Positions 15,458 to 22,474 of a DNA stretch of 64,000 bases are shown piece by piece. This DNA comes from Gulosibacter sp. 10. Lineage in GTDB: Bacteria; Actinomycetota; Actinomycetes; Actinomycetales; Microbacteriaceae. The first letter of the stretch is position 1; the number at the start of each line of letters is the position of its first letter. The notes beneath the pieces were generated by a model that was not told the DNA's origin, ran no database searches, and saw only the letters and a program-made list of their open reading frames with translations. Where the stretch lies: the NCBI RefSeq assembly GCF_900163695.1, contig NZ_FUIC01000008.1:124001-188000 (forward strand), written 5' to 3'. The translations under genes and the position numbers were made by a program.

Positions 15458-16651
15458 ATGAATGCCCCCGCGACGCCCCGCCCCGCGATGGGGCGGCGCG
15501 CCCCGACCCCGCCGCAGCACTGGGAGCTCTACTCGGGCGCCGCCATGATCGTGATCTGCGTGGGCATCGCCGTGCTCATGCTCTTCACGAGCGGGCCGCC
15601 CCGCATTCCCGAATGGCTCTGGGGCGGGCTCTTCCTGCTCGCCGTCTCGCTCGTCGTGCTCGCCGTGTCGGGCCTGCTCCCCCGCCCCTGGCCCCTCCCC
15701 GTGTTCGCCGGGGCCGTGCTCCTCAGCTGGCTCCTGCTCATGGCCATGCCCGGTCAGGGCCTGTTCATCGTGATCTTCGTGATGATCGCCGCAGCCGGCG
15801 TCTCCATCCTGCCGATGCCCGCGATCCTCGGCCTCGTCGTCGCGAACAGCGCGGTCGTGATGCTGCACCAGCTCCTCGCCGGCGCCGACGCGCCGGAGGT
15901 CGTCGCGACCACGGTCTTCTGCCTGCTCATCCACCTCGCAAGCGTGTTCAGCAGCTCCGCGATGCAGCGCGAGAGCGAGCTGCGCGCCGAGCTCGAGGAG
16001 CAGCACGTCGAGCTCACCGCCGCGGCGGCGCTGCTCGAGGACTCGGCCAAGGCCTCGGAGCGGCTGCGGATCTCCCGGGAGCTCCACGATCTCATCGGTC
16101 ATCAGCTCACCGTCCTCAGCCTCGAGCTCGAGGCGGCCAAGCACCGGGACGCCGAGCGCCGGGGCGTGCACGTCGATCGTGCGGCGGAGGTCGCACGGGA
16201 GCTGCTCCGGGACGTGCGCAGCACCGTCGGCGAGCTCCGCGCCGCCGAGCGCGGCGGGCTCCGGGCCCATCTCGAACGGCTCGGCGGGGCGGTGCCGACC
16301 CTCCAGGTCCACGTGCACGTCGAGGAGGGCGTCTACCCGGACGAGCAGCAGACGGCCGCCCTCGTGCGCGCCGCCCAGGAGATCGTCACCAATGCGGTGA
16401 AGCACGCGAACGCGCGCGAGCTGTGGCTCGACGTGACCCGCGACGCCGAGACGATCCGGCTCGTGGGCGTGGACGACGGGTACCCGCCCGGCAGCATCGA
16501 GTTCGGCAACGGGCTCACCGGGCTGCGCGAGCGCGTGGAGCTGCTGGACGGGGAGCTCCGTGTGGAGCCCCGCGGCGAGTTCACGGTGGAGGTGCGGCTG
16601 CCCGCCTCCGCGCGCCCCGCCTCCGCAGCCGCCGAGGGGGCCGGCGCATGA
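15458..16651 (+). CDS. NarL/DesK-type sensor histidine kinase
   Basis: The 397-residue kinase has a membrane sensor of about five hydrophobic spans (residues 25-170), a coiled-coil linker (about 170-203), a HisKA_3 dimerisation domain with the phospho-acceptor His210 in SRELHDLIGHQL, and a HATPase domain (N-box AAQEIVTNAVKHANA, then VDDGYPPG and FGNGLTGLRERVE). There is no extracellular ligand domain, so it probably senses within the membrane. Its stop overlaps the response-regulator start (ATGA). The divergent ABC exporter is its likely target, as in many antibiotic-sensing systems; this is inferred from position. Confidence 0.93.
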   Translation: MNAPATPRPAMGRRAPTPPQHWELYSGAAMIVICVGIAVLMLFTSGPPRIPEWLWGGLFLLAVSLVVLAVSGLLPRPWPLPVFAGAVLLSWLLLMAMPGQGLFIVIFVMIAAAGVSILPMPAILGLVVANSAVVMLHQLLAGADAPEVVATTVFCLLIHLASVFSSSAMQRESELRAELEEQHVELTAAAALLEDSAKASERLRISRELHDLIGHQLTVLSLELEAAKHRDAERRGVHVDRAAEVARELLRDVRSTVGELRAAERGGLRAHLERLGGAVPTLQVHVHVEEGVYPDEQQTAALVRAAQEIVTNAVKHANARELWLDVTRDAETIRLVGVDDGYPPGSIEFGNGLTGLRERVELLDGELRVEPRGEFTVEVRLPASARPASAAAEGAGA

Positions 16652-17337
16652 CCGGCTCCGGCATCCGCGTGCTCGTGGTCGACGACCAGACCCTCGTGCG
16701 CCGCGGGATCGGGACGCTGCTCGAGCTCGGCGGCATCGATGTGGTCGGCGAGGCCGCGGACGGCGCCGACGCCCTCGAGGCCATCCGGCGCGACAGCCCC
16801 GACGTGGTCCTGCTCGATCTGCGGATGCCGCGCTACGACGGCCTCTGGTTGCTCGAACGCCTCGCGGAGCCCCGTTCCGCCGCCCCGGATGCGGACGACC
16901 CCGAGGCGGAGCCGCCGCCCGTGCTCGTCCTCACGACCTTCGACGACGACGCGCTGCTGCTCGAGGCCCTCCGCCTCGGCGCGCGAGGCTACCTGCTCAA
17001 GGACGTCACCGTCGAGCGGCTCGCCGCCGCTGTCGCGACGCTCGCGGAGGGCGGCACGCTCATCGCCCCCTCCATCACCGACCGGCTGCTCAGGGCCATC
17101 CGATCGGGCCCGCCGCCGGCCGGCGCCGACGACGCGCCCGTGCAGCCGCTGACCGGACGGGAGCTCGAGGTGCTCCGCCTCGTCGCCGAGGGCTACACGA
17201 ACCGGCAGATCGCGGAGATCGTGCACCTGGCCGAGGGGACCGTGAAGAACCACCTGTCGGTGATCCTCGCGAAGCTCGGCGCGAGGGATCGCACGAACGC
17301 CGTGCTCCGGGCGCTGCATGAGGGCATCCTCGGCTGA
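16648..17337 (+). CDS. NarL-family response regulator
   Basis: The 229-residue protein has a receiver domain (1-135) with the acidic pair VVDDQ, phospho-acceptor Asp57 in VVLLDLRMP and the conserved Lys in GYLLKDV. A Pro/Ala-rich linker follows, then a LuxR-type HTH (about 165-225: LTGRELEVLRLVAEGYTN, EGTVKNHLS). A short acidic insert (residues about 77-92) lies between beta-3 and alpha-3 of the receiver. It is the partner of the kinase it overlaps and probably regulates the divergent ABC exporter. Confidence 0.95.
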   Translation: MTGSGIRVLVVDDQTLVRRGIGTLLELGGIDVVGEAADGADALEAIRRDSPDVVLLDLRMPRYDGLWLLERLAEPRSAAPDADDPEAEPPPVLVLTTFDDDALLLEALRLGARGYLLKDVTVERLAAAVATLAEGGTLIAPSITDRLLRAIRSGPPPAGADDAPVQPLTGRELEVLRLVAEGYTNRQIAEIVHLAEGTVKNHLSVILAKLGARDRTNAVLRALHEGILG

Positions 17338-17427: not shown

Positions 17428-19107
17428 TCAGGCGTTCCGCGGGCCGCGGGGGCCGTAGTCGAAGTCGGCCGTCATCGGGCCGAAGCCCTGGAGGCCGGCC
17501 GGCGCGTCCTCAGGGTCGAGGTGCAGCTCGAGGAAGGCGCCCTCGGAGGAGGACTCGATCGCCGCGAGCGCCTCTTCGAGCTCCCCCTCGGTGCGGGCGG
17601 AGTAGGAGACCATCGAGGTGTCCGGGCGGAACACCTTCGGCAGGGCGCCGTAGTCCCAGTCGGCGACGTCGTTGTACTCGGAGCGCATGCCGAGGATCCA
17701 GCGCTCGATCGTGTAGCCGCGGTTGTTCACGAGCACGATGATGGGCGCGAGGTCCTCGCGCAGGATGGTGGAGAGCTCCTGCGCGGTGAGCTGGAAGGAG
17801 CCGTCGCCGATGAACAGGATGTGGCGTCGCTCGCGCGCGGCGAGCTGGCTGCCGAGCAGCGCGGGCAGGGTGTATCCGATCGATCCCCAGATCGCCGAGT
17901 TGATGTACTTCACGCCCGCGGGCAGCGTCTGGGTGCCCAGCCCGATGTTCGAGGTGCCGGCCTCCGCGATCACCACGTCCTCCTCGCGGAAGAAGCGGCC
18001 GAAGCGCGGCCAGAGCCGCGCCTGCGTCAGCGGCGCGTCGCGGTCCGCCCGCCACGGCTCCGGCTCGGCGGCGGGCTCCGGAGCCGCGCCAGCGCGCTCG
18101 GGCGCGCGCTCGAGCAGCACGTCGAGCAGTTCGAGCACGTCGATGCCGATGTAGTCCACGCCGTGGATGCCGACGTGCTGGTCGCCGAAGTCGACGGTCG
18201 CCTCACGGGGGAGCTTCGCGGAGAAGCCGCCCGAGTTGCCCTCGATGAGCCGGGGCGTCGTGGTGAGGAGGAAATCGGCCTCCTCGATCGCCTCGCGCAC
18301 GCCGGGCGCGGAGGCGGCGCCGTTGTAGGTGCCCAGGAAGAGCGGGTGCCGCTCGTCGAGGATCGCCTTGCCCGAGTTGAGCTGCGCGTAGCGCGTGCCC
18401 GTCTTCTCGGCGAAGGCCTGCAGCTTGGCCGCGAAGCCGTGCCGGTCCGCGTCGAGATCGACCAGCAGCGCGGGGCGCTCGGCGGCCTCGAACAGTTCGA
18501 GCACGCGCGATACCGCCGATTCGAGCCGCTCCGGGTCGCTCGACGCGATGCTCGCGGCGGGGTCGAAGGGCGCCTCGGGAGCCTCGATGGTGAGGTGGGA
18601 GATGTCCGAGGGCACCTGGATGTGCACCGGCCGCTTCTCGCGCAGGGCGGTGTGCAGGGCGCGGTCGATCTCCTCGGCGGCGTTGGCCGGGGTGATGCGC
18701 ACCGCGGCCGCGGTGAACTGGCCGACGCTCGCGAGCATGTTCGTGAAGTCGCCGTCCGCCATCGTGTGGTGGAGGTCGTAGCGGCCCTCCGTCGCGTAGA
18801 GCGGCGGCGCGCCCGCGATCGAGATCATCGGCACGTGCTCGGCGGCGGCGCCGGCGATGCCGTTCAGCGCGCTGAGCTCCCCCACTCCGTAGGTGGTCAT
18901 GAGCGCGCCGAGGCCTCGGGAGCGCGCGTACCCGTCCACCGCGTAGGCGGCGTTGAGCTCGTTGCAGGTGCCGACGAACCGGATGCCGTCGAACTCGTCG
19001 ATCTGCTCGAGCAGATTGAGGTTGAAGTCGCCGGGCACGCCGATGACCTCGGTGATGCCGGCCTGGGCGAGGCGGGTGAGCAGGAACTCGCCGATGGTGA
19101 TGCGCAT
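17428..19107 (-). CDS. Thiamine-dependent 2-keto acid decarboxylase (pyruvate/indolepyruvate type)
   Basis: The 559-residue enzyme has the three-domain PDC fold. The N-terminal PYR domain carries the catalytic Glu in TCNELNAAYAVDGYAR and the His-His pair in YDLHHTMADGD. A central domain spans about 195-340. The C-terminal domain has the ThDP/Mg motif GDGSFQLTAQELS...LVNNRGY. The family decarboxylates pyruvate, phenylpyruvate or indolepyruvate to aldehydes; the substrate cannot be read from motifs alone. The ATG at 19107 has an AAGGGAG ribosome site. The gene stands alone, divergent from the TipAL-like regulator across an AT-rich spacer. If it acts on indolepyruvate it would link tryptophan to indole-3-acetaldehyde. 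Confidence 0.88.
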   Translation of the reverse strand: MRITIGEFLLTRLAQAGITEVIGVPGDFNLNLLEQIDEFDGIRFVGTCNELNAAYAVDGYARSRGLGALMTTYGVGELSALNGIAGAAAEHVPMISIAGAPPLYATEGRYDLHHTMADGDFTNMLASVGQFTAAAVRITPANAAEEIDRALHTALREKRPVHIQVPSDISHLTIEAPEAPFDPAASIASSDPERLESAVSRVLELFEAAERPALLVDLDADRHGFAAKLQAFAEKTGTRYAQLNSGKAILDERHPLFLGTYNGAASAPGVREAIEEADFLLTTTPRLIEGNSGGFSAKLPREATVDFGDQHVGIHGVDYIGIDVLELLDVLLERAPERAGAAPEPAAEPEPWRADRDAPLTQARLWPRFGRFFREEDVVIAEAGTSNIGLGTQTLPAGVKYINSAIWGSIGYTLPALLGSQLAARERRHILFIGDGSFQLTAQELSTILREDLAPIIVLVNNRGYTIERWILGMRSEYNDVADWDYGALPKVFRPDTSMVSYSARTEGELEEALAAIESSSEGAFLELHLDPEDAPAGLQGFGPMTADFDYGPRGPRNA

Positions 19108-19157
19108 GAAACTCCCTTGTGTCGATTCCTCCCATAGTCGGGAGAACATGCATTGTG

Positions 19158-19178
19158 TGCAAGTGATTGCAAATCATA
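19158..19178 (-). promoter_or_regulatory. Candidate promoter/operator of the decarboxylase gene
   Basis: In an unusually AT-rich stretch (about 19150-19215), a minus-strand TATGAT (19173-19178) is followed by the inverted repeat TGCAA-GTGA-TTGCA (19158-19171), which would cover the start of transcription. I could not find a good -35, so the promoter call is tentative. Confidence 0.35.
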
Positions 19179-19286
19179 CTTACAAATTGACGCATTAATT
19201 GCTTATAAATAGGCAAGCTGTCCGTACCTGATCTCGATTCGGAGTGCTGGGTGCCGCCTCGTTCGGAGTTCCTGCGGGGTCGGTGC

Positions 19287-19317
19287 TTGACCTTGACGTT
19301 GCGTCAACCAATAGCGT
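19287..19317 (+). promoter_or_regulatory. MerR-type promoter of the TipAL-like gene
   Basis: The -35 TTGACC (19287-19292) and -10-like TAGCGT (19312-19317) are separated by 19 nt, the over-long spacing typical of MerR-activated promoters. The spacer holds the perfect dyad TTGACG-TTG-CGTCAA (19293-19307). The gene's own product is the obvious binder, giving autoregulation, as for tipA. Confidence 0.7.
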
Positions 19318-19345
19318 GGAGTCGCCGACGACCGAGGAGGACCAC

Positions 19346-20116
19346 ATGGACTGGTCGATTCAGGAGATCGCCAAGCTCGCGGGCACGACGAGCCGCACGC
19401 TGCGCCACTACGACGCCATCGGGCTGCTCGAGCCCACCCGCATCGGGGGCAACGGCTATCGCCGCTACGACGAAGAGGCGCTCGTGCGCCTCCAGCGCAT
19501 CCTGCTGCTGCGCGAGCTCGGCCTCGGGCTGCCGCAGATCGCGGAGGTGCTCGACCGTCAGTCCGATCCGGTCGAGGCGCTCGAGAGCCATCTCGAGTGG
19601 CTCCGCGAGGAGCGGGATCGGCTCGGACGCCAGATCGCGTCCGTGCGGTCCACGATCGAGGTATTGCAAGAAGGAGGAGTACTCATGGCCACGACCATGT
19701 TCGATGGATTCGACCACACCCGGTACCGCGAGGAGGTGGAGCAGCGCTGGGGCGCCGACGCGTATGCCGAGGGCGACCGCTGGTGGCGCTCCCTCTCCGA
19801 AGCGGAGCGCGCCGACTGGCAGCGTCGGGTCGCGGACCTCGCGAACGACTGGTCCTCCGCCGCGGAGCGCGGCGTCGACCCGGCGTCCGAGGAGGCGCAG
19901 GCGCTCGCGCACCGGCACGTCGAATGGCTTCGCGGCGTGCCCGGCACGCCGGCGGCCGCGCCCGACGGCGACATCGCCGGCTACGTGCGGGGACTCGCCG
20001 ACATGTACGTCGCGGATCCCCGATTCGGGGCGAACTACGCGACCTCGGAGGGCGGGGCCGCGGGCGCGGAGTTCGTGCGCGACGCGCTGCACCGCTATGC
20101 CGAGGAGCGCCTCTAG
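19346..20116 (+). CDS. TipAL-like MerR regulator with TipAS drug-binding domain
   Basis: The 256-residue protein has a MerR winged-helix HTH (1-70: IQEIAKLAGTTSRTLRHYD, NGYRRYDEEAL), a coiled-coil dimer helix (about 75-110) and a C-terminal TipAS domain (114-256) rich in Trp and acidic helices (EQRWGADAYAEGDRWW, FGANYATSEGGAA). Streptomyces TipAL (253 aa) binds thiopeptide antibiotics through TipAS and activates its own promoter; size and domain layout match closely. The ATG at 19346 follows GAGGAGG. A second in-frame start lies at codon 114. The stop shares a CTAG with the convergent uvrA-like gene. Confidence 0.92.
   Translation: MDWSIQEIAKLAGTTSRTLRHYDAIGLLEPTRIGGNGYRRYDEEALVRLQRILLLRELGLGLPQIAEVLDRQSDPVEALESHLEWLREERDRLGRQIASVRSTIEVLQEGGVLMATTMFDGFDHTRYREEVEQRWGADAYAEGDRWWRSLSEAERADWQRRVADLANDWSSAAERGVDPASEEAQALAHRHVEWLRGVPGTPAAAPDGDIAGYVRGLADMYVADPRFGANYATSEGGAAGAEFVRDALHRYAEERL
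19671..19687 (+). promoter_or_regulatory. Internal ribosome site and start for a TipAS-like short protein
   Basis: AAGGAGGAG (19671-19679) lies 5 nt before an in-frame ATG at 19685, codon 114 of the TipAL-like gene. Starting here gives a 143-residue protein made of the ligand-binding domain only. Streptomyces tipA makes TipAS (144 aa) from the same mRNA in this way. Confidence 0.75.
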
Positions 20117-22407
20117 CCCTCGGCGGCCGCTCGGAGCGCGCGGCCGGTGAGGGAGGCCTCGCACCGCATCACCTCGGCGGGGGTGCCCGTCACGAGCAGG
20201 CGCCCGCCGTCGGCCCCTGCCCCCGGGCCGATGTCGATGACGCGGTCCGCCCTGGCGATGACCCGGAGGTTGTGGTCGACCACGACCAGGGTGGCTCCCG
20301 CATCGACGAGCTCCGCGAAGAGGTCGTTGATGCGATCGACGTCGCCCGGGTGCAGGCCGGTCGTCGGCTCGTCGAGCACGATTCGCTCGCGGGTGAGATC
20401 CGCGGAGGCGCCGAGGTGCTTCGCGAGCAGCAGCCGCTGCTTCTCGCCGCCGGAGAGCGTGTCGAGCGACTGGCCGACCGCGATGTAGCCGAGGCCGACC
20501 CGATCCATCCACCGCATCGCCGAGACGATCTCGGGATCGTCCGCGAACAGCGCCGCGAGGTCGTCCGCGGTCATCCCGAGCACGTCGGCGATGCTCCGCC
20601 CCCGGATCCTCGCGGCGAGCGCCTCCTCGTTGAACCGCGCGCCGCCGCACACGTCGCAGGGCGTGGCCACGTCGTCGAGGAAGGCGAGCTCCGTCGTGAT
20701 GTAGCCCTTTCCCCTGCAGGCGGGGCACGCGCCCTTCGAGTTGAAGCTGAACCACGCGGGGGCGAGGCCCGATGCCCGGGCGAACCGCTCGCGCACCGCG
20801 TCCGCGATGCCGAGCACGCTGAGCGACGTGGACCGGACGCCGCCGCGCAGCGGATCCTGCCCGACGACGACGAAGTCGGGCCGCTGCCCGGGCAGCTCCA
20901 CCGTGGCGAGCGAGCTCTTGCCGGAGCCGGCCACCCCCGTGATCGCGGTCAGCACCCCGAGCGGGATGTCCACGTCGAAGCCCGTGAGGTTGTGCGCGCT
21001 CGCCCGCTCGACGCGGACGCTGCCCCGCTCCCGCCGCACGGCCGCCGCCGGCTCGAGCGGCCGCGCGAGCAGCCGCCCCGTGATGGTGCCGCTCCCGACG
21101 AGGGCCGCGGGATCGCCCTCGAACTGCACCGAGCCGCCTTCGCGGCCGGCCCCCGGCCCCATGTCGATCACGTGGTCGGCCGTCCGGATGACCTGCGGAT
21201 GGTGCTCGACCACCACGACGGTGTTGCCCGCGTCGCGCAGCTCCCGCAGCAGCCGGTTCAGCCGCTGCACGTCCGCCGGGTGCAGGCCGGAGGACGGCTC
21301 GTCGAAGACGTAGGTGACGTCGGTCAGCGCACTGCCGAGATGCCTGACGATCTTCACCCGCTGCGCCTCGCCGCCGGAGAGCGTCGAGGATTGCCGGTCG
21401 AGGGTGAGGTAGCCGAGCCCCACCGAGACGAGTGCGCCGAGGGTGCGCCGCATGCCGTGCACCGCGGGAGCCACCCGCGGATCGTCCATCGTCGCGAGCA
21501 GGGCGTGGAGGGCCGAGACCGACATCCCGGTCCAGTCGACGATCGACCGGCCGTCGATCAGGCTGGACCGGGCCGCCTCGTTGAGGCGGGCGCCCTCGCA
21601 CTCGGGGCAGCGCCGCCGGGTGAGGATGCGGTCCAGCTCCTCCCGCACGGCCGCCGACATCTTCTCGGGGCGGTTGCGGATGTACACGTCGCGGATCCGC
21701 GTGACCACCCCGTCGAACCGGGCCGTCTTCGGGAACTCCGGCTCCGGGGCCGGCAGCTTCAGCTGCTCCGCGTAGAGGAAGAGCCGCATCTCCTCCTCCG
21801 TGTAGTCCTTGAGCGGCTTGCGCCGGTCGAATAGGCCGCAGTAGGCGAACCGCTTCCAGCGGTAGACGCCCGGCCGGAACTGGCTGAACCGCACCGGCCC
21901 CTCGTCGATGCTCTTCTCTGGGTCGATGAGCTCGTCCAGGTCGATGTCGACGACCGTGCCGAGGCCGTCGCAGCGGGGGCACATGCCGGCCGGGTCGTTG
22001 AAGGAGTAGGCCGGCGAATATCCGGCCGAGGGCTCGCCGATCCGCGAGAACACGAGTCGCAGCAGCGGCGCGATGTCGGCGGCGGTCGCCACGGTCGACC
22101 GGGCGTTGCCCGTGAAGCGCCGCTGGTCGATGAGCGCGGTGAAGGTGAGCCCGCTCATCGACTGCACCTCCGGCTCGGGCAGGTGCGGCAGCCGGTTGCG
22201 CACGAACGCGGGATAGGAGTCGTTCACCAGCCGTTGCGCCTCCGCGGCGATCGTGTCGAGCACGAGCGAGGACTTGCCCGAGCCCGAGACGCCGGTGACC
22301 GCGGTGAGCGCCTTCTTCGGCACGTCCACCGTGACATCGCGCAGATTGTTGGTGGCCGCGCCCACCACCCGGATGAAGTCTCCGCCCTGAGGCTCCTGCC
22401 TGTCCAT
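20113..22407 (-). CDS. Class II UvrA-like ABC protein (UvrA2/DrrC type)
   Basis: The 764-residue protein has two ABC modules (Walker A GVSGSGKSS and GVAGSGKSS; signatures LSGGEAQR and LSGGEKQR; Walker B YVFDEPSSGLHP and IVLDEPTTGLHP) and zinc-type cysteine pairs (CPRCDGLG, CPECEGARL, CPACRGKG, CDVCGGARF). It is about 180 residues shorter than housekeeping UvrA and lacks the UvrB-binding insertion, like class II UvrA and DrrC, which protect against DNA-intercalating drugs. The ATG at 22407 is preferred because TAGGAT lies 7 nt upstream with no Shine-Dalgarno sequence; an ATG at 22416 is possible. It is not the main UvrA, which should be elsewhere. Confidence 0.9.
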   Translation of the reverse strand: MDRQEPQGGDFIRVVGAATNNLRDVTVDVPKKALTAVTGVSGSGKSSLVLDTIAAEAQRLVNDSYPAFVRNRLPHLPEPEVQSMSGLTFTALIDQRRFTGNARSTVATAADIAPLLRLVFSRIGEPSAGYSPAYSFNDPAGMCPRCDGLGTVVDIDLDELIDPEKSIDEGPVRFSQFRPGVYRWKRFAYCGLFDRRKPLKDYTEEEMRLFLYAEQLKLPAPEPEFPKTARFDGVVTRIRDVYIRNRPEKMSAAVREELDRILTRRRCPECEGARLNEAARSSLIDGRSIVDWTGMSVSALHALLATMDDPRVAPAVHGMRRTLGALVSVGLGYLTLDRQSSTLSGGEAQRVKIVRHLGSALTDVTYVFDEPSSGLHPADVQRLNRLLRELRDAGNTVVVVEHHPQVIRTADHVIDMGPGAGREGGSVQFEGDPAALVGSGTITGRLLARPLEPAAAVRRERGSVRVERASAHNLTGFDVDIPLGVLTAITGVAGSGKSSLATVELPGQRPDFVVVGQDPLRGGVRSTSLSVLGIADAVRERFARASGLAPAWFSFNSKGACPACRGKGYITTELAFLDDVATPCDVCGGARFNEEALAARIRGRSIADVLGMTADDLAALFADDPEIVSAMRWMDRVGLGYIAVGQSLDTLSGGEKQRLLLAKHLGASADLTRERIVLDEPTTGLHPGDVDRINDLFAELVDAGATLVVVDHNLRVIARADRVIDIGPGAGADGGRLLVTGTPAEVMRCEASLTGRALRAAAEG

Positions 22408-22414
22408 GCCGCTC

Positions 22415-22420
22415 ATCCTA
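22415..22420 (-). promoter_or_regulatory. Probable -10 box for leaderless uvrA2-like mRNA
   Basis: TAGGAT on the minus strand ends 7 nt before the ATG at 22407. It faces a second -10-like box for the divergent secA2-like gene 54 nt away. Confidence 0.4.
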
Positions 22421-22474
22421 CGAGCGGCCCCCGACATCGGATGGAGCGCCCGTCCCCCGTCCTGGCGGCGGCGC

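Follow-up and report, generated by a model that had tools for sequence, protein, structure and literature searches.

The window, the whole 64,000-nucleotide stretch of DNA analyzed here (Gulosibacter sp. 10), contains at 19346-20116 (+) a gene for a MerR-type regulator with a C-terminal TipAS domain, and a second candidate start lies in frame within this gene. The features of the locus are as follows.

19287-19317 (+): MerR-type operator-promoter, with -35 TTGACC (19287-19292), a 19-bp spacer and -10 TAGCGT (19312-19317); the pattern is conserved
19334-19340 (+): Shine-Dalgarno (SD) sequence GAGGAGG of the full-length start, from the sequence; anti-SD energy -11.6 kcal/mol
19346-20116 (+): full-length MerR-TipAS regulator (TipAL-like), 256 amino acids; Pfam MerR_1 and TipAS, sequence matches to solved structures
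19346-19669 (+): helix-turn-helix (HTH) and long coiled-coil helix, residues 1-108; AlphaFold2 model, helix 75-108
19671-19679 (+): internal SD AAGGAGGAG, within codons 109-112; rare-codon peak and strong anti-SD pairing kept in orthologues
19685-20116 (+): predicted second product, the TipAS domain alone (TipAS-like), 143 amino acids; conserved internal SD-start

A divergent gene for a thiamine-pyrophosphate enzyme (17428-19149, -) shares the intergenic region with the operator, and a convergent 774-amino-acid gene (20113-22437, -) has matches to ABC-type ATPases (Pfam ABC_tran and others) and is presumably UvrA-like. A pair encoding a histidine kinase and a LuxR-type response regulator is found at 15458-17321 (+).

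The regulator belongs to the TipA class, in which MerR and TipAS domains are joined. The N-terminal HTH matches PF13411 (MerR_1, 3.2e-18) and PF00376 (3.7e-13), and the C-terminal domain matches TipAS (PF07739) over the whole profile (1-117 of 117; 4.9e-28, 98.4 bits), which bears out the TipAS similarity proposed in a preliminary description of this DNA. Among solved proteins, the best full-length sequence matches are SkgA and the Listeria MerR-like protein 3qao (which we take to be Lmo0526), with MtaN and the N-terminal domain of TipA coming next, and the C-terminal half matches solved TipAS. An AlphaFold2 model (25-sequence alignment, pLDDT 86.8, pTM 0.55) has a fold like that of TipAS and SkgA: Foldseek ranked SkgA first (E 5e-7, across its 139-residue chain) and TipAS 2mbz 38th (E 0.0065, TM 0.67 by target length). 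In the model, residue 108 is the last of the coiled-coil helix and the main effector helices start from 128, which places Met114 in the linker, where the 10-residue-block pLDDT of the model is lowest (75 and 68).

Codon 114 is an in-frame ATG at 19685, just after CAAGAAGGAGGAGTACTC; the internal SD and this start are present as first described, and the 143-residue product and 256-residue full length given then are as computed. The lengths cited at the same time for Streptomyces, 144 for TipAS and 253 for TipAL, fit the solved chains (143-144 amino acids) and the limits of TipAS stated in PMC6078987 (G111-P253). The predicted internal product would be 15.9 kDa and free of Cys. G+C is 0.50 in the 30 bases around the internal start, compared to about 0.74 in the rest of the gene, and 0.53 in the 30 bases that open the gene. 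Of the other codon positions in the gene, about 3.4% have an anti-SD match as strong as that of the internal start. Moreover, with synonymous recoding of the eight upstream codons, the SD was not stronger than the null (-12.6 compared to a mean of -12.9 kcal/mol, P = 0.46), because E-G-G, however coded, spells an SD-like string. The site in this single gene is thus unusual and inconclusive, and we therefore compared its relatives.

Genome contigs yielded 227 relatives, in genera including Arthrobacter, Paenarthrobacter and Microbacterium; the best 80 of these (58-77% identical) made up the orthologue set, or 81 genes with that of the window. The codon-114 column is ATG in 72, GTG in 8 and GTA in one; hence an ATG or GTG stands at one column in 80/81 genes, and the sole GTA gene (L069) has an ATG one codon upstream. 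GTG fills 8 of the 9 non-Met positions, compared to 38% of Val codons in these genes (P = 0.0025). When codon rarity was scored column by column against each gene's own usage, the highest bias fell at columns 106-110 (z 10.1-12.9) and 115 (z 7.8), followed by columns 224 (z 4.9) and 111 (z 4.8); the six top columns were unchanged after dereplication to the 41/81 genes below 80% nucleotide identity (z 5.6-8.4). For instance, Leu107 is TTG in 28/47 genes (usage 6%) and Arg108 is AGA in all 10 (usage 2%). Anti-SD energies average -14.6 for the internal site, compared to -9.8 for the annotated start and -3.9 for positions elsewhere. Pairing at the internal site beats the mean of the synonymous null in 36 of the 41 dereplicated genes, with only 35/81 genes reaching P < 0.05 singly. 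G+C at the site averages 0.54 compared to 0.70 in the rest, and is lower in all 81 genes. The aligned SD lies 7 nt from the start in 28/81 genes and 10 nt in 45/81 (together 73/81), and its register relative to the codons differs by group (GGA-GGT, GAA-GGA-GGA or GGG-GAT-GGA); thus, bases rather than residues are conserved.

Conservation of the internal SD-start across the 81 orthologous genes is far beyond chance. The preliminary description had called the internal site strong, which holds for the orthologues taken together but not for the window gene by itself (P = 0.46). That same P value speaks for an accident of coding E-G-G-x-x-M, yielding both an SD and an ATG, but such an accident is barely credible given the codon bias seen column by column in the orthologues and again in a separate clade described below. 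We also considered that the SD-like stretch might produce no second protein, serving instead as a translational pause that aids folding at a domain boundary. Its position between the coiled coil and the TipAS domain and its cluster of rare codons would suit a pause; a pause, however, needs no start codon, yet ATG or GTG is kept at one column, with the aligned spacing held to 7 or 10 nt in most genes, GTG in excess where Val replaces Met, and an adjacent ATG in the GTA gene. We consider a pause alone very unlikely. Evolution thus supports the production of two proteins from the window gene, which is very probably real, and the TipAL/TipAS reading first proposed is very probably right.

To place the window gene in its class, we assembled 83 further TipAS-class genes: a paralogue in the host genome, 58 genes from phylum and order searches, 22 from plasmid records and 2 from viral contigs. 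The TipAS domain was present in 65/198 genomes of the phylum search and 118/149 of the order search, from which we took the best 30 matches per search, so that these loci are not random; the plasmid genes were taken from among the matches listed, and the set includes near-duplicates (L126/L127, L121/L125 and L169/L174). The viral-contig search gave just the 2 relatives, and a phage search gave 17 records, which stand outside the set. A gene was scored as passing if its linker had an ATG or GTG with an anti-SD energy of -8 or lower, judged by the best linker start, which may not be the true one.

A strong linker SD-start was found in 68/84 genes (window included), compared to 21/333 equal 30-codon stretches elsewhere in the same 84 genes, likewise judged by their best start. 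Counting single codons, 77/194 linker ATG or GTG codons pass, compared to 30/562 elsewhere in the same genes (P about 4e-28). MerR genes without TipAS passed in 6/31 cases (Fisher P about 2e-9 relative to 68/84), although these controls were drawn solely from the host genome and its order, and many encode shorter proteins. They represent 31 of 38 MerR loci, after removal of five that match TipAS (of which two passed -8 and three failed) and two that were too short; L138, the locus of the window gene itself, was excluded. Because the controls include no Bacillota, each gene was compared with itself: linkers passed in 10/10 Bacillota plasmid genes compared to 4/39 equal stretches elsewhere, and in 58/74 non-Bacillota genes compared to 17/294. 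One of the three alphaproteobacterial genes passes, by means of a GTG. Two sphingomonad plasmid genes (L129 and L130) are of the TipAS class and have no linker SD-start, and are possible losses.

A positive control is provided by L086, a Streptomyces-like TipAL gene whose product shares 34/36 residues with solved TipAS and in which the Met of EARK-M-GINLTPEE corresponds to residue 1 of TipAS 2mbz; thus, the Met equivalent to that of the window is where solved TipAS begins. Its internal SD passes (-9.3), although a GTG located 12 codons further on is marginally stronger (-10.2). Among the Cys-bearing Actinomycetota genes, 24/42 have the form E-A-x-x-M, and in 19 of these 24 the Ala codon is GCA, compared to a usage of 7% (z = 10.3). 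Codon choice in this TipAL-type clade appears as a signature independent of that in the window's clade.

Sixteen of the 84 class genes fall short of the threshold, so a member of the class need not make two products, and the predicted internal linker SD-start is common rather than universal. The host paralogue (L081, contig C49) is one of the sixteen: it keeps the TipAL-type cysteine, lacks a start codon within the 25 residues that precede its domain (a weak one, -6.4, lies further up), and carries no TTGACGnnnCGTCAA dyad within its locus over bases 701-1140. A plasmid record of Enterococcus raffinosus contains a stand-alone TipAS gene (L128, 1564-1983), whose annotated start is the ATG that corresponds to the internal start; its 3.5-kb locus yielded no MerR-like match. 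Among the matches listed, two other records of this species match the TipAS part only and two match at full length. The two-product trick known from Streptomyces is thus probably common in its family, as judged by these linker starts.

The window gene is not a TipAL proper with an active cysteine. TipAS binds its ligand through a cysteine (PMC7762955), and the column that is presumably the reactive one, the TipAL-type column, is Cys in 48/93 aligned rows and Asp in the window; nine orthologues aligned with the window protein likewise have no Cys there, one of them being gapped. The window protein is Cys-free over its whole length, and the C-terminal part contains no Cys in 75/81 orthologous genes (window included) and one in the other 6. 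Thus, covalent thiopeptide capture as in TipAS is unlikely, and we reject thiostrepton, put forward in the preliminary description, or another thiopeptide captured through Cys as the ligand. Trp and Tyr residues are invariant in the alignment, which would fit an aromatic or hydrophobic ligand bound non-covalently.

We then examined how the gene might be controlled. The promoter spacer contains a dyad, TTGAC-GTTGC-GTCAA, and the promoter layout, searched with a constant 19-bp spacer, is matched by 77 of the 81 orthologous genes, the other four having diverged versions. The host genome (3.65 Mb, 55 contigs) contains a single copy of the 31-base operator pattern even at up to 3 mismatches, which is as far as the scan reaches, and the core dyad also occurs once at up to 1 mismatch; blastn of plasmids with the promoter region gave no match. 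The gene is therefore the only recognizable target of its regulator, and it is probably autoregulated, as this layout suggests. If so, the induced product must itself act, which points to drug sequestration. A separate short mRNA from a promoter inside the gene would also yield the short form, and the G+C dip could conceal such a promoter, but we found no promoter-like site in a consensus scan of 19150-20180; this argues weakly against it, as the scan covers 16-18 bp spacers and also missed the 19-bp-spaced promoter. We regard an internal promoter as highly improbable.

Together, these results suggest that the window gene encodes an autoregulated drug sensor of the TipA class, with two proteins translated from a single mRNA, drug-activated transcription of its own gene and sequestration of the drug, an explanation to which we assign a probability of roughly 0.85. 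Of this, the two domains, the conservation of the internal SD-start and the operator pattern with its one genomic copy are computed directly. Full-length dimers would act at the promoter at 19287-19317 and, upon binding a hydrophobic or aromatic drug, would switch on transcription of their own gene. Ribosomes would also initiate at 19685 on the same mRNA to make the 143-amino-acid drug-binding domain, which would mop up the drug. Sequestration, mostly by the cheaper short form, would be the likely resistance function, since no other copy of the operator was found in the genome. The short form might instead be made to buffer the ligand and thereby set the threshold for induction (or to form inactive partners) rather than to act as the resistance agent. 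Without the HTH and coiled coil, it would compete for ligand, and the single operator is equally compatible with such a self-tuning loop. On the other hand, AlbAS, a TipAS-type domain alone, can protect E. coli cells (PMC12144233), and the stand-alone gene in E. raffinosus is hard to explain as a buffer only. Thus, we think a pure buffering role unlikely, if still worth weighing, and we favor sequestration.

The closest known system is TipAL/TipAS of Streptomyces lividans, where tipA yields both forms (PMC2893106; PMC7762955), with TipAS predominating (PMC7762955). Both systems join MerR to TipAS, with two in-frame products (predicted here) whose sizes agree within 3 residues, an internal start in the same linker, and autoregulation (probable here). 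They differ in that the window protein has no cysteine for covalent thiopeptide capture, its internal start is 13 rather than 21 residues before the Pfam TipAS match, and its linker sequence is not alike. SkgA (7cla) and Listeria 3qao, its best full-length solved matches, have a Met aligned at the same linker place, but are alphaproteobacterial and Listeria proteins, and the available text of PMC7762955 mentions no two products for them. AlbA of Klebsiella is also MerR-like, but has tandem TipAS-like domains (348 amino acids); its short drug-binding form, AlbAS, is assumed by analogy with TipA, and its authors state that both forms are still to be identified in vivo (PMC6078987). Mta of Bacillus subtilis is likewise of the TipA class (PMC7762955) but activates other transporter genes (PMC9909328), whereas the window operator was found only at its own gene.

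The MerR-TipAS two-product kind is already known, and the possible novelty lies in how broadly the internal start is conserved. NolA of Bradyrhizobium is a class member from which several proteins arise by internal starts. Two products were shown for Streptomyces tipA and only assumed for AlbA, according to PMC6078987, and among the matches listed we found no report of a family-wide internal start in literature titles and abstracts on TipA or internal starts. We somewhat favor the idea that the TipA class inherited the two-product design from its common ancestor, such that most "single" TipAS-class regulators would be sensor-plus-sponge circuits, with occasional losses and fission. If so, the linker-codon SD would have been kept in Bacillota, Actinomycetota and some Alphaproteobacteria, Mta-like and AlbA-like regulators would count among such circuits, the host paralogue and the two sphingomonad plasmid genes would be losses, and fission would have produced the stand-alone sponge. 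Codon-level conservation makes the two-product question testable across many genera and predicts where each short form begins; it also suggests that annotation may miss a drug-binding protein in many TipAS-class genes. The two-product design, which is kept, is separable from the cysteine chemistry, which is absent in the window's clade.

We also note that the two starts of some orthologues appear to differ in kind. In 19 of the 77 promoter-bearing genes (for example, L028, L049, L050 and L064, upstream of position 1501), the first start codon is only 6-7 nt past the -10, which leaves no room for a leader; thus, the full-length form looks leaderless, while the short form would be SD-led. Anti-SD energies of these 19 genes range from +1.9 to -6.8 at the full-length start, and their internal SDs are strong (mean -13.8, weakest -10.0). 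With a leaderless-looking sensor and an SD-led sponge, the state of the ribosomes may affect the two forms unequally. Five of the 19 have a further ATG at codon 20 (energy -8.4), which would cut into the HTH if used.
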